Source of the DNA: Levilactobacillus brevis ATCC 14869 = DSM 20054
GTDB lineage: Bacteria > Bacillota > Bacilli > Lactobacillales > Lactobacillaceae
NCBI RefSeq assembly: GCF_001433855.1
Contig: NZ_AZCP01000004.1
Coordinates: 208,894 to 272,893, forward strand
Length of the DNA: 64,000 nt
Direction of reading: 5' to 3'
The notes beneath the pieces are model-generated. The model was not told where the DNA came from and did no database searches. It saw nothing but the letters and a program-made list of their open reading frames with translations. This document shows positions 2,817 to 13,852 of this stretch, piece after piece (the first letter of the stretch is position 1; each line of letters begins with the position of its first letter). Both the position numbers and the translations under genes were made by a program.

Positions 2817-3812
2817 ATGAAATGGATGAAGTTAGCATTCTTAGCCGGTCTAAGTCTAAGTTTATGGGGAACGACAACGGCTCAGGCGGCTAAGCGGACT
2901 GTCTTACCCAAGTATCCGCGGCAACGCCTATTTACGTTTAAGACCCGGCGGACTAAGGTGTACAGCTATCCGCGAGCGGCGTATGCCCGTAGCAAGGTGC
3001 TGGGCGTTAATAAGAGCACGAAAAAGCAGTGGACGGTTGATAAGGTCGTGACGGTTAATGGCAAACGCTACGTGCGTTTGGCGGCAGTCAGTGCCCAACC
3101 GTTGCATCACGGCACGGTTGCCCCACTGCCTGCTAAGCGCAATCAGTTGGCGGGAGGATACGTGGCCTTGCGACAATTACGCAGTCACTCAGTGATTCGG
3201 CAGTTAAAAGCCATTAAGAAAACGGCCTACTGGACGCCAACGACCGACCATGATTATTGGGATATGCCGGCGCGAACGATCGGGACGACGGCTGCCGTTC
3301 ATTACGGCACGACTTATGGTTACCGAACGTTGTATGCGACCGAGTCGTTGACGACAACCCGTCAGAAACATTATCTGTATCTCACCACGGCAAATGGCAA
3401 AGGGATTGGTTGGCTACCAGCCAATGTGGTGATTAAGGGCACTTACCCCAACTTATTGCAGCGTGAGGTGAATCGGCAGTTAACAGGGATCACTGCCACG
3501 ACCACGACAGTTGATGCGGCAGCCCACGTCAAGGTGGGTGTGGCGATGGCGGCCGGGGTGGTACAACGGGTTGTCTTGCTTCGCCAAGATAGTACAACGG
3601 TGACGTCTGACTTTGTTACTGGGCGGGCGGTGATCGCCACCACGCGGTCGGCAACGGGGAAAGTTGTTAAGACTGCGAAGGTTAAGCAAACCGCGCCTAT
3701 CTTTAGCTTTACCGCCCGTGCAGATTTTGATATTCATGGGTATACCTATCGCGTCAAAGTAGCGCAAACTGGCGCCGTAACGATTCTCGGAACCGGTGGC
3801 TGGATCGCCTAA
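2817..3812 (+). CDS. Secreted SH3-like surface protein
   Basis: It starts with a clear signal peptide (MKWMKLAFLAGLSLSLWG followed by a TTAQAA cleavage region). The mature part is very basic and rich in Thr, Val and Tyr. Blocks ending in a Gly-Trp-Leu-Pro-x-Asn-Val motif (about residue 200) resemble the small SH3-like cell-wall modules common in lactobacilli. No catalytic domain is recognised. The gene lies 35 nt after the dipeptidase with its own GGGGGGAG ribosome site, so it could be the second gene of that unit. Function unknown; a cell-wall-associated role is inferred from the secretion signal and module type. Confidence 0.7.
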   Translation: MKWMKLAFLAGLSLSLWGTTTAQAAKRTVLPKYPRQRLFTFKTRRTKVYSYPRAAYARSKVLGVNKSTKKQWTVDKVVTVNGKRYVRLAAVSAQPLHHGTVAPLPAKRNQLAGGYVALRQLRSHSVIRQLKAIKKTAYWTPTTDHDYWDMPARTIGTTAAVHYGTTYGYRTLYATESLTTTRQKHYLYLTTANGKGIGWLPANVVIKGTYPNLLQREVNRQLTGITATTTTVDAAAHVKVGVAMAAGVVQRVVLLRQDSTTVTSDFVTGRAVIATTRSATGKVVKTAKVKQTAPIFSFTARADFDIHGYTYRVKVAQTGAVTILGTGGWIA

Positions 3813-4017: not shown

Positions 4018-4587
4018 GGTTGAATCAGTGGGGATGTTTTGGCGGATGACTCGGGCAGGGTTACCAGCAATGACGACGTTATCGCCAAAGGATTTGGTGA
4101 CGGTCGAGTTGGCACCAACCACCACATTGTTACCTAAAGTCACGCCGGGCAAAATGACCGATCCGCCACCGACCCAAACGGAATCGCCTAAGGTTACCGG
4201 CTTACCTAGGCCAATGAACTTGTCGCGACCGCGGGGGTCCAGCGGGTGATAGGCCGCATAGATTTGTACGTGGGGCGCCAACATACAGTGATTACCAATG
4301 GTCACTGGTGCAATATCTAAGATGACATTGTCATAATTACACATAAAGTTATCGCCAACGTGAATGTTATAGCCAAAATCGCAACGGAAATTGGGTTGAA
4401 TCCATGGGCTTTTACCAACAGAGCCAAAGAGCTGGCGGATGGTGTGGTCCTTTTCAGCAGCGGCGGTGTCGTCCAGTTCATTGATAATCTTGCATAAACG
4501 ACGGGCTTTGGTCTCCTCAGCAGCTAACTCGGGATCCATGATGTTATAAGGTTCGCCCGCAAGAAATTTTTCTTTTTCTGTTTTCAA
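4012..4587 (-). CDS. Maltose/galactoside O-acetyltransferase family protein
   Basis: A 191-residue left-handed beta-helix acetyltransferase of the MAT/GAT (NodL-LacA) type, expected to transfer acetyl from acetyl-CoA to a sugar hydroxyl. An N-terminal helical Mac-like segment (residues 1-60) is followed by hexapeptide repeats with the signature NFRCDFGYNIHVG. The catalytic His is in YAAYHPLDP (His114), and a C-terminal GNPARVIR closing motif is present. The ribosome site GGAGGCGG lies 8 nt before the ATG. The natural acceptor sugar cannot be read from the sequence. It is transcribed alone, towards the secreted protein gene. Confidence 0.88.
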   Translation of the reverse strand: MKTEKEKFLAGEPYNIMDPELAAEETKARRLCKIINELDDTAAAEKDHTIRQLFGSVGKSPWIQPNFRCDFGYNIHVGDNFMCNYDNVILDIAPVTIGNHCMLAPHVQIYAAYHPLDPRGRDKFIGLGKPVTLGDSVWVGGGSVILPGVTLGNNVVVGANSTVTKSFGDNVVIAGNPARVIRQNIPTDSTK

Positions 4588-4691
4588 ATGAAACCGCCTC
4601 CAGCGTTGTTTTGTTTATTGTAGCATAGTTTGCAGAATATTTATACGGATAAATATAGGGATCGAAAATTGGTTCGTTAATTTTTGGCCGG

Positions 4692-4720
4692 TTGCTATTT
4701 GGGATGAAGTTCGGTATACT
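4692..4720 (+). promoter_or_regulatory. Promoter of the leader-FBP unit
   Basis: TTGCTA (4692-4697) and TATACT (4715-4720) are separated by 17 bp, placing transcription start near 4727. The 5' UTR also contains a small hairpin, TTAGCC/GGCTAA, at about 4731-4747. Confidence 0.65.
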
Positions 4721-4768
4721 TACAGCCGCTTTAGCCAAATTAGGCTAAAATTAAGGAGATGATCAACG

Positions 4769-4810
4769 ATGATGGCATCGTTATTCGTACGGAAAAGTGC
4801 TGCTAGTTAG
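4769..4810 (+). CDS. 13-residue leader peptide (MMASLFVRKSAAS)
   Basis: A short ORF with a very good ribosome site (AAGGAG at 4753-4758, about 10 nt upstream) that ends before the hairpin array preceding the FusB/FBP-type gene. Its 3' codons (Lys9-Ser10) form the left arm of the first hairpin, so a ribosome stalled there would melt it. This layout is the one used by leader peptides of translational attenuators such as ermC. That it is translated is inferred from its ribosome site and position. Confidence 0.6.
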   Translation: MMASLFVRKSAAS

Positions 4811-4865
4811 CGACACTTTTCTGCGAGACCCTTTCAGAGAAGTGTCAGGTTTGTCAATCTGAAAG
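4793..4865 (+). promoter_or_regulatory. Putative translational attenuator of the FBP gene
   Basis: Three hairpins can form. H1 is 4793-4799 with 4814-4820 (7 bp). H2 is 4812-4823 with 4835-4846 (12 bp, one G:T). H3 is 4831-4837 with 4859-4865 (7 bp). H2 excludes both H1 and H3. H3 covers AAAGG of the ribosome site of the next gene (GAAAGGA, 4861-4867). Thus H1 plus H3 would hide the ribosome site, and a ribosome stalled on the leader peptide would favour H2 and open it. No T-tract follows, so control of translation rather than of transcript termination is the more likely mode. Confidence 0.6.
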
Positions 4866-4877
4866 GAATTTAATATC

Positions 4878-5525
4878 ATGGAACCAACAATTACTGCCTA
4901 TGAGTATAGTGACATCAAACAACACGTTAACGCCTTGGTAAGTGCCTATTTAGCCGTCAATGATCGCCATATGCGATCGATTATTCGGGCTGAGACAATT
5001 GCCTATGTGACACCATTCTTACCGGAGGGCGCCCCCTTAACGCAAGCATTTCTGGCTGGGTTACAGCCGGATCGCCTCAGTCGTAAGGAAGCGGCGAAGT
5101 TGTTACCGTTACTAGAACCCGCTGTGATTCCCTTTCCGCAGTTCAGTACCAAACAACTGGGAAAGCTGTTCCGCAAGGTGAAAAAGCTAAAACAACCAGC
5201 GTGGGCCAGTTTGAATCTGCATGAATTAACCTATCTTGGTTGGAACGATGGGGGCAGTCAGAAGAAATACCTGGTTATACCAGACCACGAGCGGTTTATC
5301 GGTATCCGCGGTGATCTGGCACCACAAACCGTCAAAGGGGTTTGCGCGATCTGTCAGACGATTGGTAACGTGTCGTTGTTTGTCTCAACGACGAAGACCT
5401 CTGGACTCGGGACATATACGCGCAACGGCAATTATATTTGTCGTGATAGTGCACAATGCAATCGGCAATTGACTGATCCACAAGCCCTACAGGACTTCTT
5501 AGCGGTCGTCCGGCCGCAACGTTAA
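4878..5525 (+). CDS. FusB/FBP-type EF-G-binding protein with treble-clef zinc finger
   Basis: A 215-residue protein of the family whose staphylococcal members FusB/FusC bind elongation factor G and help free it from fusidic-acid-stalled ribosomes. The N-terminal part is helical. The C-terminal half (about 140-200) carries the zinc-finger pattern Cys156-x2-Cys159, Cys188-x5-Cys194 with the intervening VSLFVSTTK segment. Homologues are common in lactobacilli without known drug selection, so a housekeeping role in ribosome or EF-G recycling is equally possible. The ribosome site is embedded in the putative attenuator just upstream. A terminator follows. Confidence 0.85.
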   Translation: MEPTITAYEYSDIKQHVNALVSAYLAVNDRHMRSIIRAETIAYVTPFLPEGAPLTQAFLAGLQPDRLSRKEAAKLLPLLEPAVIPFPQFSTKQLGKLFRKVKKLKQPAWASLNLHELTYLGWNDGGSQKKYLVIPDHERFIGIRGDLAPQTVKGVCAICQTIGNVSLFVSTTKTSGLGTYTRNGNYICRDSAQCNRQLTDPQALQDFLAVVRPQR

Positions 5526-5539
5526 CTGAATAATCCACT

Positions 5540-5570
5540 GAGCGCGACGATTTTAGTCGGGCTCTTTTTA
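5540..5570 (+). terminator. Intrinsic terminator after the FBP gene
   Basis: A 9-bp stem with one mismatch (5540-5548 with 5556-5564) followed by TTTTTAT. Confidence 0.7.
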
Positions 5571-5713
5571 TTTATGGAAAGGCCGATGCAAGATTAGTTC
5601 CGATGGTTCAAACCGGCGACCAGACGCGATTAACTAGCCATTAAAAAGAAACCGCTTTAGCAATTAAATTCGAAAAAAATTGGACAAAGGGGCCTAGATT
5701 GCCGGTCATTATC

Positions 5714-6831: not shown

Positions 6832-8898
6832 TCATTTGACAGGTTTGAGTTTTAAGGTCATCGCGTTAATTGCCACAATCACGGTGCTAAGTGACATGAT
6901 GACGGCACCGACCATGGGATCAAGCATGAAACCAATGGGGGCCAAGATTCCAGCTGCCAGTGGAATCGCGATTAAGTTGTAGCCAGCCCCCCACCAGAGG
7001 TTTTCGGTCATCTTCCGTGTCGTCGCGCGCGCTAAGTCTAGGAATTGAATGACGTCGGCTGGATCACTGGCGACCAAGATAATGTCCGCCGATTCAATCG
7101 CGACATCGGTACCAGAGCCAATTGCCATCCCGATATCTGCTCGGGCCAAACTTGGGGCATCGTTGACCCCATCGCCGATAAAGAGGACTTTACCAGAGGC
7201 TTGGTACTGTTGAACGAGACGTTCCTTGTCTTCTGGCAATAAGCGAGCTTGTACATCCTCAATCCCAACAGCGTGGGCGACCTTATTCGCCGTTTCTTGA
7301 TTATCACCCGTCAGCATAACGGGGGTAATCCCTTGGCGCTTTAATTCACTGACGAGGTGCTGGGCGTTTGGTTTGATCTGATCACCTTCAGCGACTAACC
7401 CTAAGACCCGGTCACCTGTGACGAGATAGCTGAGTGAATTGCCTTCAGCGGCTAAGGTCTTGAATTGGGCTTGATCGTAAGTTAAGTGGTGTTGCTCCAA
7501 ATAGGAAACGGCAACGACACCATAAGTGACGCCATCGATGGTACCAAACTGGCCCATCCCAGTTTCTTGATGCGTGTCAGTAGCGGCTGTGTAGGTAATT
7601 TGTTGTGCCTTAGCAGCGCTAAGAATCCCGGTTGCTAGTGGATGACTAGAGCCGCTTTCCAGGCTAGCTAGTAAGCGTAAAATGGTTTCTTCACTGTAGT
7701 CTTGGTCTAAGCTAATCAAATGGTTCACTTGAAAATGCCCCATAGTCAAAGTTCCCGTTTTATCCATCAGCGCAAACTTTAAGTGTTTGACATCTTCCAT
7801 GGCATTGCGATTACGGATGAGTAAGCCATTTTGAGCGGCTAGTGCTGTACTCCGTGCGACAACTAATGGGACAGCCAAGCCCAATGCATGCGGGCAGGCG
7901 ATGACGAAGACGGCTACCGCTACGGGAAGTGCCACGGCTAGGTTGGCCACCGTTAACCAAATGAGGAAAGCCAGAATACCAACGAATAAAGCGGCGTAGA
8001 ACAACCAACCAGCCACGCGATCAGCCAAATTTTCTGAGGTTGACTTTGCATTCTTGGCATTTTGGATCAAGTCCATGACTTGAGCGAGATAACCGGAATC
8101 ACCAGTTCCGGTGACTTTAGCCGTAAATGTTCCGGTGCCATTCACGGAACCGCCGATGACTTGGTCGCCCGTAACCTTTTTGACGGCAGCGGCTTCACCA
8201 GTGACTAGGGATTCATTAACTGCGGAGGTCCCAGTTACAATCGTCGCATCCGCGGGAATTTGCTCACCAGCACGAACAACCACTGTCTGGCCAACTTGTA
8301 GGTCATTTAGGGAAACGTCGTGGGTGGTGCCAGCGTCATCAACGACGTGGGCAGTTTGTGGGAGTAGCTTGCCTAAGGCATCCACGGCTGACCCGGCATT
8401 CATGACGGTGTTCATTTCAATCCAGTGTCCTAATAGCATGATGACAATTAAAGTGGAAAGTTCCCAGAAGAAATTGTTGACCATCGGGGTGACATGGAAT
8501 AAGTCGTTAGCGATGACGGCATAAATACTGTAGATGTAAGCCACACCAACGCCCATCGTGATGAGCGTCATCATTGCCGGTTGCTTCATTTGGAGTTCGG
8601 CCTTGGCACCGCTGAAGAAGGGGGCACCACCATAAATGAAGAGAATCGTGCCTAAGATGGCGACGACCCAATCACTACCGGGAAAGGTTAACTGGAAGGG
8701 CAGGGTGACACCCATCATTGGTGACATGAGAATAATGGGGATGGTCAGAATCAGGGAAACCCAGAACTTACGCTTTAAGTTGCCCATGTGCATCATATGG
8801 CCATCGCCCATGTCCATATCGTTCATATTCATGTGATCGCCATGAGCCATATCCATTTGGTCCATGTGATCGTGGGTCATCATTTCGTGTTCTTTCAT
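6832..8898 (-). CDS. copB: Copper-translocating P1B-type ATPase, CopB type
   Basis: A 688-residue exporter. The first 40 residues are a Met/His/Asp-rich metal-binding tail (many HM, DM and MGD repeats). Then come the P1B membrane segments with the CPH motif (VIACPHALGLAVPLV), the actuator TGEAAAV loop, the phosphorylation motif DKTGTLTMG, the SSHPLA histidine-proline motif and GDGVNDAPSLARADIG. CPH instead of CPC is characteristic of CopB (P1B-3) pumps that export copper or silver. The start overlaps the stop of copY by 4 nt (ATGA), so it is translationally coupled to the repressor and controlled by it. A terminator lies downstream. Confidence 0.95.
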   Translation of the reverse strand: MKEHEMMTHDHMDQMDMAHGDHMNMNDMDMGDGHMMHMGNLKRKFWVSLILTIPIILMSPMMGVTLPFQLTFPGSDWVVAILGTILFIYGGAPFFSGAKAELQMKQPAMMTLITMGVGVAYIYSIYAVIANDLFHVTPMVNNFFWELSTLIVIMLLGHWIEMNTVMNAGSAVDALGKLLPQTAHVVDDAGTTHDVSLNDLQVGQTVVVRAGEQIPADATIVTGTSAVNESLVTGEAAAVKKVTGDQVIGGSVNGTGTFTAKVTGTGDSGYLAQVMDLIQNAKNAKSTSENLADRVAGWLFYAALFVGILAFLIWLTVANLAVALPVAVAVFVIACPHALGLAVPLVVARSTALAAQNGLLIRNRNAMEDVKHLKFALMDKTGTLTMGHFQVNHLISLDQDYSEETILRLLASLESGSSHPLATGILSAAKAQQITYTAATDTHQETGMGQFGTIDGVTYGVVAVSYLEQHHLTYDQAQFKTLAAEGNSLSYLVTGDRVLGLVAEGDQIKPNAQHLVSELKRQGITPVMLTGDNQETANKVAHAVGIEDVQARLLPEDKERLVQQYQASGKVLFIGDGVNDAPSLARADIGMAIGSGTDVAIESADIILVASDPADVIQFLDLARATTRKMTENLWWGAGYNLIAIPLAAGILAPIGFMLDPMVGAVIMSLSTVIVAINAMTLKLKPVK

Positions 8899-9341
8899 GA
8901 TTCACAGCTCCCTTCACAATCTGCTGGTAAACAGTCACAGTCGACCATTTGAGGCGCCTGCGGTAGCTTCTGGGTTAGTGTCCCAATTAACTGTTGAATA
9001 TCCGTTTGACTCAGTTCAGTTTGTTCTAATACGTGGGTCAAAGCTTTGCCGCGGTGCATCGCACACATCTGATCAAGCTCGGTTTGTAGGGCCGTGTCCA
9101 TGGCCGTTTGTTCATCGATAAGTGGTGTGTAGATATATTGACGGCCTTGTTTGGTGGTTGCCAAGGCGCCTTTTTTGACCAGACGTCCAATTAAGGTCTT
9201 AATCGTCGGGGCTTTCCAGTCGTGTTGGCGCTCAAGAAGTTCAATGATGGTATGACTATCGGCCTGATTTAACGTCCACACAATCCGCATGACCCGCCAT
9301 TCGGCGTCGGAAATGGAGACGGTTAATGTTGTATTTGACAT
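8895..9341 (-). CDS. copY: CopY/TcrY-family copper-responsive repressor
   Basis: A 148-residue BlaI/CopY-type winged-helix repressor (ISDAEWRVMRIVW at the N-terminus, GRLVKKGAL in the recognition-wing region). The C-terminal Cys cluster is Cys135-x-Cys137-x4-Cys142-x3-Cys146, close to the CxCx4CxC metal site of enterococcal CopY but with an extra spacing in the last pair. The start is placed at the ATG behind AAGGGGGGAG; the frame stays open 26 codons upstream, but that would put the start across its own promoter. It should repress copY-copB and the cupredoxin-copA unit through TACANNTGTA boxes. Confidence 0.92.
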   Translation of the reverse strand: MSNTTLTVSISDAEWRVMRIVWTLNQADSHTIIELLERQHDWKAPTIKTLIGRLVKKGALATTKQGRQYIYTPLIDEQTAMDTALQTELDQMCAMHRGKALTHVLEQTELSQTDIQQLIGTLTQKLPQAPQMVDCDCLPADCEGSCES

Positions 9342-9361
9342 AAGTGACTCCCCCCTTAGAC

Positions 9362-9419
9362 TACAAATGTAATCTTTAATAACTGACTTGAGTCTACATC
9401 TGTAGTCATGATGTGTCAA
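9362..9419 (-). promoter_or_regulatory. copY-copB promoter with two CopY boxes
   Basis: On the minus strand TTGACA (9419-9414) and TAGACT (9396-9391) are 17 bp apart. Two cop boxes of the form TACANNTGTA lie at 9395-9404 (abutting the -10) and 9362-9371 (just after the start site). A partial third copy, TACAAATGTG, is at about 9434-9443. Confidence 0.85.
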
Positions 9420-11926: not shown

Positions 11927-13852
11927 TTAAGCACCACTGATAGTGGTCGTGAGCTTAGATCGATTTAACAAGACGGAGCTTGCCACGACGGATAAGGAGC
12001 TAAATGCCATTGCTAGACCAGCCAGTTCAGGACTGAGTGATAAGCCAATCGCGAAGAAGACACCTGCCGCCACGGGAATACCAAGGACGTTATAGATGAA
12101 GGCCCAGAAGAGGTTTAGTTTAATACGACTAAACGTTTTTTGGCTCAACGCCAAGGCCTTATCGACGTCACGTAAGTCGTTTTTGACTAAGACAATGCCA
12201 CCAGAATCAATGGCAATATCTGTGCCGGACCCCATTGCAATACCGACGTCGGCTGTCGTCAGTGCTGGCGCATCGTTGATACCATCACCGACAAAGGCCA
12301 CTTTGCCATCATGTTGGAATTGCTTAATCTGGGCGGCCTTATCGCCTGGTAAGACATCGGCAATCACTTCATCAATCCCAATTTGTTGCGCGACAGCCTG
12401 GGCTACCCGTTGATTATCTCCTGTTAGCATGACGGTTCTTAGACCACGTGCACGTAAGGCTGCAATGGCCTCTTTTGAGGTTGGTTTAGGGGCATCTTGA
12501 ATGGCGATCAACCCGATAATGCGGTCATCCAGACCCACAAATACCACGGTTTTGGCCTCGTTTTGCAGCCGGGTTTCCTGTTGTTGTAACTGCTTGTCAA
12601 AGGTCAGATCGCCTAAGAGTTTCTGGTTACCCACGACTCCTTGTTGACCACTAATGGTTGCGGCAACTCCCTTACCCTCAATCGCAGTGAAGTTCTCAAC
12701 CGGAAGCGTGGAGATGTTGTCAGCTTTAGCCTTAGCTAAAATTGCTGCTGCCAATGGGTGTTCTGATGAGTCCTCTAGACTAGCAGCAATTTGAAGGACC
12801 TGCTTTGAATCCCCAATGATATCGGTGACTTGGGGCTTGCCGACAGTGAGTGTGCCTGTCTTGTCAAAAACAACGGTCTGAACGTCGTTAACGGCTTCCA
12901 GAACCTCCCCATTTTTGATAAGAATCCCCATTTTAGCGCCGCGTCCCGTGCCAACCATTAAGGCCGTGGGCGTCGCTAAACCCAGCGCACATGGGCAGGC
13001 AATAACGACAACGGAGACCGCAAAGATCAGTGCATTAGCGAGGCTGGCATTCAACAGAACGTACCAGGCGAGGAACGTGGCAATTGCCAGAATCAAGACA
13101 ACCGGCACAAAAATGTCGGAGACCTTATCCGTTAATTTTTGAATAGGGGCGTGACTATTTTGGGCCTTTTTTACCAGGTCGACAATTTGCGATAGTAGGG
13201 TTTGATCCCCAATTTTATCGGCCTTAAACCAAAAGGTACCGGTGTTGTTTAGTGTCGAGCCGATGACAGGATCGGTTACCGTTTTGGTAACGGGCATACT
13301 TTCCCCCGTCACCATTGATTCGTCAACGCTGGAGCTACCCTTAACGATCGTCCCATCAACCGGGATCTTTTGGCCGGGTTTCACGCGAATGGTGTCACCT
13401 AATTTGACAGCAGCGAGGGGTACTTTGACAAAGTGATCGCCACGGCGTACCTCAGCGTCTTTGGCTTGCAAATTAACCAGTTTTTCAACGGCATTAGAGG
13501 CATTGTGCCGCATTTTTTCCTCAAAGACTTGTCCGAGGAGAACAAACGTTGTGACAAAAGCAGCACTTTCAAAAAAGACGGCTTGGTGGGTCACCATCGC
13601 ATAGATACTGTAAAAGTAGGCCGTTGCCGTTCCAATAGCGACTAGTGTATCCATGTTAGCGTGGTGCTTGGTGAACGAGGCCCAAGCGCTTTGAATAAAG
13701 GGGCCGGCCGATAGTAGCATGATGACAGTGGTTAACCCAAGTTGGGTCCAAGCCCCGCCTGGCAGCATCCAGCCGAATGGCATTAAAATCATACCAGCCA
13801 ACATTGGCAAGGAGAAAATGAATGAAATCCAAAAACGTTTAGTGATTGACAA
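11927..13852 (-). CDS. copA: Copper-translocating P1B-type ATPase, CopA type, without N-terminal metal-binding domain
   Basis: A 641-residue Cu(I) exporter. The CPC motif ([17 protein letters not shown]), phosphorylation motif [26 protein letters not shown] and the last-helix [12 protein letters not shown] segment all fit P1B-1 pumps. There is no CxxC heavy-metal-associated domain: the protein begins directly at the first membrane helix. The TTG start at 13852 follows AAGGAGT by about 10 nt and is the only usable start codon near that site. It lies 17 nt after the cupredoxin gene and shares its CopY-controlled promoter. The separate cupredoxin may take over metal delivery or extracytoplasmic binding. 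Confidence 0.93.

Follow-up and report, generated by a model that had tools for sequence, protein, structure and literature searches.

How is the gene for an EF-G-binding protein on the chromosome of Levilactobacillus brevis controlled, and what part is played by the very short open reading frame (ORF) that precedes it? The gene lies on the + strand at 4878-5525 of the window, by which we mean the whole stretch of 64,000 nucleotides that was analysed, in a genome of 2.47 Mb. We took as members of the FBP/FusB family those proteins in which both the EF-G-binding_N helical domain and the FBP_C treble-clef zinc finger score above their curated cut-offs. Both are found in the 215-residue product (PF07299, 82.9 against 27.1 bits; PF16571, 39 against 27.2 bits), which also matches the solved structures of 'Far1' (FusB; E 8.3e-37) and of 2yb5, a putative fusidic acid resistance protein (E 9.5e-36). 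Its scores with the NCBIfam exception models of the named resistance proteins FusB/C/D/F fall far short of the cut-offs, the best being 147.4 against 435 for FusF, and the closest named FBP loci are those of Levilactobacillus. Release of EF-G stuck on ribosomes is established for FusB; as a member of the same family the FBP protein would act likewise, and the product of the window gene probably frees jammed ribosomes.

Downstream of the gene, at 5540-5569 (+), an imperfect hairpin (GAGCGCGAC/GTCGGGCTC) followed by TTTTT, found by eye and absent from our pattern-scan list, is a likely terminator. Elsewhere in the window we noted two P-type ATPase genes and a Penicillinase_R-family repressor gene (6832-9419 and 11927-13852, -), perhaps a copper homeostasis cluster, the metal being a guess, and a gene at 2817-3812 (+) for a 331-residue protein whose N-terminus looks signal-like by eye and for which Pfam gave no match at E 0.001.

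Upstream of the FBP gene, and on the same strand, a sigma-70-like promoter candidate (TTGCTA - 17 nt - TATACT, 4692-4720) agrees with the consensus at 9 of 12 positions, and its TTGC and TATACT boxes are in place in most rows of our alignment; the call is weak by itself, as 5 promoter-like sites occur in 4588-5650 against a mean of 2.0 in shuffled sequences. At the 5′ end of the predicted transcript, folding and covariation reveal a hairpin, H0 (TTTAGCC/GGCTAAA, 4730-4749, arms 4730-4736 and 4743-4749). Six of its seven pairs have changed on both sides among 34 sequences, with 85.4% of cells paired, and most of it is absent from one locus (L028). Such a covarying hairpin, almost at the predicted transcript start, is possibly an mRNA 5′ stabiliser. 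The leader ribosome-binding site, AAGGAGATGATC (AAGGAG(ATGATC), 4753-4764), of which AAGGAGATGAT is near-invariant in the alignment, serves a 13-codon leader ORF, MMASLFVRKSAAS-stop, at 4769-4810, supported by sequence, conservation and the leader alignment. The ORF and its strong AAGGAG site are as the original prediction described them. A further hairpin, HS (AACGATG/CATCGTT, 4765-4782, arms 4765-4771 and 4776-4782), encloses the leader start codon according to folding, shuffles and covariation, and the ribosome-binding site of the EF-G-binding protein gene itself, AAGGA, is seen in sequence and alignment at 4863-4867. HS, H0 and the promoter-like site at 4692-4720 are additions of the present analysis. 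Searched against Rfam, 4300-5700 had no match up to E 1. Another short ORF, MINDDGIVIRTEKCC (4759-4806, +), overlaps the leader in a different frame and has similar counterparts in L002, L004 and L103; as a leader candidate it was rejected, since it begins directly behind AAGGAG, with no spacing, and is disrupted in the L009-L011/L033 group.

Four arms, the first within the leader and the last at the gene's ribosome site, can pair into three hairpins. The left arm of hairpin 1:2 (4790-4823; 4790-4799/4814-4823 and 4801-4804/4809-4812; 10 bp, -16.5 kcal/mol) consists of codons R8, K9 and S10, where Lys9-Ser10 had been proposed. The competing helix 2:3 (4812-4846; 4812-4823/4835-4846 and 4825-4827/4831-4833; 12 bp, -18.7 kcal/mol) shares arms with both of its neighbours, and hairpin 3:4 (4830-4866; 4830-4838/4858-4866; 9 bp, -12.2 kcal/mol) hides the gene's ribosome site, AAAGG of the AAGGA being included in its 3′ arm. 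The three hairpins of the original prediction, with a 12-bp middle one competing with both flanking ones and the last one over the FBP gene's ribosome site, were thus recovered. To ask how often such a nested triple arises by chance, we took the thresholds from the helices seen: at least 10, 12 and 9 bp, with correct overlaps and a last arm that extends to the ribosome site. None arose in 5000 dinucleotide shuffles of 4785-4868; the 12-bp helix alone arose in 107 of 5000. The fold of the whole region has a z of -2.86, and 2 of 200 shuffles were equally stable. Hairpins that exclude one another, with the gene's ribosome site masked by the last of them, are therefore present here in silico and by conservation. 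Two other marks of a translational attenuator are found as well: a short leader led by a Shine-Dalgarno (SD) site, and the absence of an intrinsic terminator from the leader, a pattern scan of the + strand of 4588-5650 having given no terminator-like site.

What would a ribosome on the leader do to this fold? We simulated a stall by keeping the ribosome footprint, which spans 15 nt upstream and 16 nt downstream of the first P-site base, unpaired in those 36 of 37 Lactobacillaceae regions that could be profiled (L038 duplicates L002). In all 36, the gene's ribosome site was at least 0.5 open for some stall within codons 4-10 (6 to 12 in 15-codon leaders), whereas with the ribosome on the last codon it was 0.18-0.22 open; in the window, the last two codons do not expose it. 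In the model, translation to the stop should therefore keep the gene off and a stall over a wide range of codons should turn it on. With no ribosome on the leader, the site was closed (0.30 or less, of which 0.2 stems from one base outside the helix) in 27 of 36 regions and more than 0.3 open in 9, and these nine leaky baseline folds are a counterpoint to the attenuator. Stall-induced opening as large as that of the window was reached by 1 of 60 shuffles. In simulation, then, a stalled ribosome would open the fold, and the stall need not be at Lys9-Ser10, since stalls at about codons 4-10 suffice.

We put the probability that this element is a translational attenuator inducing the chromosomal FusB/FBP gene upon ribosome stalling, closest to the pUB101 fusB attenuator, at about 84%. 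According to the folds, 1:2 and 3:4 would be paired in the absence of an inducer and 3:4 would hide the gene's ribosome site. In the simulation, a ribosome stalled at roughly leader codons 4-10 would cover arm 1, upon which 2:3 would form, arm 4 would be freed and FBP protein would be made. By analogy with pUB101 fusB, any cause of jammed EF-G-dependent elongation is likely to act as inducer; the example known is fusidic acid. The enclosure of the start codon in HS would probably keep leader initiation, and hence leak, low; we guess at this role because FusB at high level inhibits translation in vitro, as stated in PMC12493156.

The element is well conserved within the Lactobacillaceae. The same leader and arms recur in 30 of the 32 other FBP loci of named genomes (33 loci returned, one unrelated; L034, a 30-residue match, was dropped), the exceptions being a Furfurilactobacillus locus with a different leader and that of Secundilactobacillus kimchicus, which has no visible leader. 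The ORF, its stop position, the arms and the mask over the ribosome site are kept in Levilactobacillus, Lactiplantibacillus and Secundilactobacillus oryzae. A lack of conservation of the short ORF or of the arms in orthologous loci had been named as the outcome that would speak against the original prediction; both are kept in these 30 of 32. The folding and covariation analysis in related lactobacilli suggested at the same time shows the arms pairing across the 34 rows of our alignment A1 (which leaves out L030, L031, L038, a copy of L002, and L103; alignment A2 and the covariance model R1 comprise 23 of the rows), with double-sided changes mainly in H0 and HS. Indeed, 99.7% of cells are paired in 3:4, where six of nine pairs are invariant, 91.0% in 1:2, with one pair changed on both sides, and 88.5% in HS, with two such pairs. 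For 2:3 the figure is 91.8%, against 33.9-60.6% when the partner is slid, and for the off state as a whole sliding the partner lowers pairing to 36-55%. No covariation was seen inside 2:3 and 3:4 in the 34 Lactobacillaceae rows, where arms 2, 3 and 4 barely vary; that arms 2 and 3 each have two alternative partners would explain their near-invariance.

A search of 301 Lactobacillaceae genomes with the covariance model, made from 23 sequences, returned 23 strong hits (E ≤ 2.3e-22), each immediately before a PF07299 gene, and five weak hits elsewhere (E 0.01-0.07). Model members match by construction and the best 12 first-look candidates per genome were scored, so that the absence of the element elsewhere is good evidence, short of proof. 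Of the 35 genomes whose FBP gene exceeds the cut-off, 12 had no model hit; nine of these have another leader type (G057, G859, G872, G901, G902, G917, G960, G985 and G997) and three no countable leader (G046, G399 and G996, the last with only a 7-codon TTG ORF).

Is the window switch a one-off? We called leaders mechanically by a ribosome site with at least 5 consensus letters, a length of 7-30 codons and a stop 20-110 nt before the gene. In 395 Lactobacillales genomes this rule finds a leader before 85 of 108 FBP genes, and six of these leaders look like background (L071, L072, L212, L215, L221, L222); the background rate is about 10% (5 of the 47 remaining genes in the window and 9 of 88 neighbour genes). 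The 108 genes exclude five weak PF07299 hits that fall within other ORFs (G382:C12, G158, G132:C59, G086, G210), and the count also misses G009, G032 and G053, whose genes have leaders (L018, L021, L028). Leaders behind a slightly weaker ribosome site escaped the rule at L062, L153, L204 and L205. In other Bacilli the rule finds leaders at 9 of 62 FBP genes with a callable start (63 fetched; L130 has no start), which is near background. The f17 loci, taken as staphylococci because they score best with the models of staphylococcal FusB/C/D/F, have a leader in 7 of the 11 fetched with the whole gene (MLHKNATLLIQSVRLT and relatives, including some that the rule missed); one of these loci, L272, reaches a FusD score of 502.6 against a cut-off of 450. 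A leader, MQTKLHCSRLSNNGFRIV, is present in Listeria records and another, MIRQTLSLSKTHEVVCH, in an E. faecalis record, and we took f8 g44 as Listeria and f3 as Enterococcaceae since named records share their leaders or proteins. Judged from these sequences, the switch does not seem to be confined to the window, similar leaders being placed before the FBP/FusB genes of Enterococcus, Listeria and staphylococci. We also observed a short SD-led ORF (VFAFKRLSIN and variants) before a gene neighbouring FBP in three g62 loci (L094, L095, L101), which might be another leader, and two FBP genes in genome G087 (L068, L071), with a convincing leader only at the L068 copy.

On a tree of the proteins in 57 chosen rows, 5 changes of the leader label are needed, against 18.8 with shuffled labels; some labels were set by eye (L126, L131 and L141 as without leader though passing the rule, L062, L272-L274 and L280 as with leader though failing it or not run). 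The tree has a supported block of 20 rows without leaders, formed by f11, f22, f30, f36, f47 and two Bacillaceae plasmid records. An old origin of FBP leaders with some losses is the simplest reading. The switching signature also turns up in families of unrelated sequence, and more often than expected: among 34 scorable loci of 35 representatives (L157 lacked a scored gene ribosome site), 9 had at most 3 of 60 shuffles as open, where 2.2 were expected (Fisher 1.3e-5; 8.4e-5 without Lactobacillaceae and pUB101), and 15 further loci gave a Fisher value of 1.2e-4, the values 1.3e-5 and 1.2e-4 being too good as several loci are related. The remaining 25 of 34, including pUB101 fusB, L101, L189 and L069, do not stand out (more than 3 of 60 shuffles as open), nor do L062, L153 and L264 among the 15 show the signature. 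Consensus folds were derived for 8 of 22 MIRxVSS, 14 of 18 Listeria-type, 13 of 13 VSYL-type and 6 of 7 staphylococcal leaders, the g54 group (11) being left out. The eight MIRxVSS Lactobacillaceae loci, whose arms are unlike those of the window, have a 1:2 helix and a helix over the ribosome site, and also a 2:3 helix of 10 bp that competes with them. In this 2:3 helix 91.3% of cells are paired, against 24-53% when slid, and covariation does not beat shuffles (324 of 500).

The leader-start hairpin changes the way in which the conservation of the leader peptide can be read. We folded 46 nt around each leader start and compared the result with shuffled codons. In the window, HS pairs the AUG with a probability of 1.0 (shuffle p = 0.028), and in 48 of 57 leaders the start codon is paired with leader codons a few positions on with P ≥ 0.5. 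With about one leader per genus (three genera twice) this holds for 20 of 23, a Fisher value of 9.8e-9 versus shuffled codons; among the ordinary ATG starts of the window it holds for 15 of 43. Taken singly, the start hairpin does not beat shuffles in the g54 group, L059, L081 and many MIRxVSS leaders. In the 22 MIRxVSS leaders, I/V2, R3, V5, S6 and S7, which lie within or next to the stem, vary little or not at all, the loop codon 4 encodes 8 residues, and codons 8 onward vary. V5 is GTA in all 22, and synonymous changes occur at R3 (CGA 8, CGT 13, CGC 1) and S6 (TCT 19, TCA 3). In the window group, HS runs over codons A3-S4-L5, its 3′ arm encoding 'conserved' residues, and R8 is replaced by Q in 8 of 35 Lactobacillaceae leaders with the arm-1 pair kept. 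Conserved residues thus lie in arms and variable ones in loops, so that peptide conservation looks largely RNA-driven, which favours a sensor indifferent to the exact stall codon over an arrest peptide of the ErmCL type. Ser/VSS/SSL residues, tried as a nascent-peptide motif, were dropped after the start-hairpin test, the loop/stem pattern and the codon counts. A coding test was uninformative (dN/dS 0.49 in the leader frame versus 0.50 in frame 2).

ErmCL carries a macrolide-dependent arrest motif, and by analogy the FBP leaders could stall the ribosome through a defined nascent motif (LFVRK or similar) together with one ligand. We consider such a drug-specific arrest peptide unlikely here. 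Comparison of the leader peptides among homologues, a check asked for at the outset, does show SL[FL]V[RQ]K kept in 28 of 35 Lactobacillaceae leaders; [AS]SxIVRxK is found in some other leaders (L068, L139, L160), and the R3 of the MIRxVSS leaders is constant in spite of its varying third base. However, the loop and arm pattern and the R8 to Q changes just described, the L059/L060 leaders, which read MAPLFAQKRVVR, and the fact that no motif common to all families was seen all speak against it, a weak or family-specific motif being possible. Since stalls at many codons would be effective and the residues are largely dictated by RNA pairing, a drug-specific arrest peptide is probably unneeded. 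We think that, if the hairpins explain the conservation, the leader is read mainly as a distance and not as a peptide. A distance-reading leader would suit a sensor for fusidic acid-like jamming, which should need no special sequence.

The pairing argument has another side, as RNA pairing accounts for most of the letter conservation and the leader frame is not favoured by dN/dS. Both would fit a 5′ UTR with a purely structural role, be it a temperature, mRNA decay or protein-bound element, in which the ORF is untranslated. We nevertheless find it improbable, because the positions of ribosome site, start and stop are kept, indels between start codon and arm within groups are multiples of three, leaders with ribosome sites recur in several families, and pUB101 fusB is reported to act through leader stalling. 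If, alternatively, the last hairpin terminated transcription unless the leader ribosome stalls, the locus would resemble Listeria lmo0919, for which transcription attenuation is known (Rli53; PMC8079631). This is very improbable for the window, given the terminator-free scan of the + strand of 4588-5650 and the fact that 3:4 holds the ribosome site and is then followed by AATTTAATATC. Rule-passing ORFs before about 10% of genes could finally suggest a chance short ORF in a hairpin-rich UTR; with the triple missing from all 5000 shuffles, leaders called before most Lactobacillales FBP genes and conservation across species, we regard chance as negligible.

If the stall-induced translational attenuator is accepted, the leaders before the homologues and before the FusD-scoring gene look inducible by ribosome stalling, and the family would have its natural role in responding when EF-G is stuck or ribosomes stall. 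This class would then differ from erm leaders in its hairpin at the leader start and in apparently having no arrest motif in common. One may go further and suppose that the chromosomal FBP genes of Lactobacillales and staphylococci form an ancient inducible ribosome-rescue response and are not constitutive housekeeping genes with chance resistance. Their leader, a hairpin-locked start followed by a four-arm attenuator, would be a ruler indifferent to the stall codon. It would report EF-G jamming whatever the cause, and would require neither an arrest peptide nor a dedicated drug. We offer this wider view tentatively, at slightly less than even odds.

How does the element compare with known systems? 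The pUB101 fusB attenuator was reportedly first described by O'Neill and Chopra in 2006. According to PMC12493156, PMC12008383 and PMC12190993, it is a translational attenuator induced by fusidic acid through leader stalling; the inducible leader control of staphylococcal fusB invoked by the original prediction is thus on record (PMC12493156, PMC12008383). A review calls the regulation of FusB homologues unknown, and in the open-access literature we found no report of leaders before chromosomal FBP genes. Like the window, pUB101 has a FusB-family gene (its protein 34.9% identical to that of the window) with an SD-led short leader, MLKDITYLKLLDLEYKMLCS, at -138 to -75, which differs from MMASLFVRKSAAS, as the original prediction said. 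Its gene ribosome site is likewise masked (0.01 open), stalls in mid-leader open it in part, to 0.32, and the leader start codon lies in a hairpin (shuffle p = 0.004). Unlike the window, it is a plasmid resistance gene with other leader and arm letters, for which induction by fusidic acid is reported, and its simulated opening is not above shuffles (7 of 60).

The comparison with erm attenuators stands for the four-arm switch; pUB101 fusB is a better counterpart than ermC, and the leader peptide of the window seems mostly constrained by the RNA, with no demonstrable arrest motif. The ermC attenuator shares with the window the 1:2 and 3:4 hairpins set against 2:3, the leader ORF and the masked ribosome site, whereas its target is an rRNA methylase and the window adds a leader-start hairpin. 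In Listeria Rli53/lmo0919, according to PMC8079631, an antibiotic-stalled ribosome on a very short ORF also switches RNA folds, but the outcome is transcription attenuation and the gene is a different one. The window element therefore belongs to the already known kind of translational attenuator represented by pUB101 fusB. What appears to be new, on the sequences compared, is the presence of such leaders on chromosomes across the Lactobacillales and before staphylococcal-type chromosomal genes, together with the hairpin at the leader start and the evidence for a peptide that looks largely constrained by the RNA.
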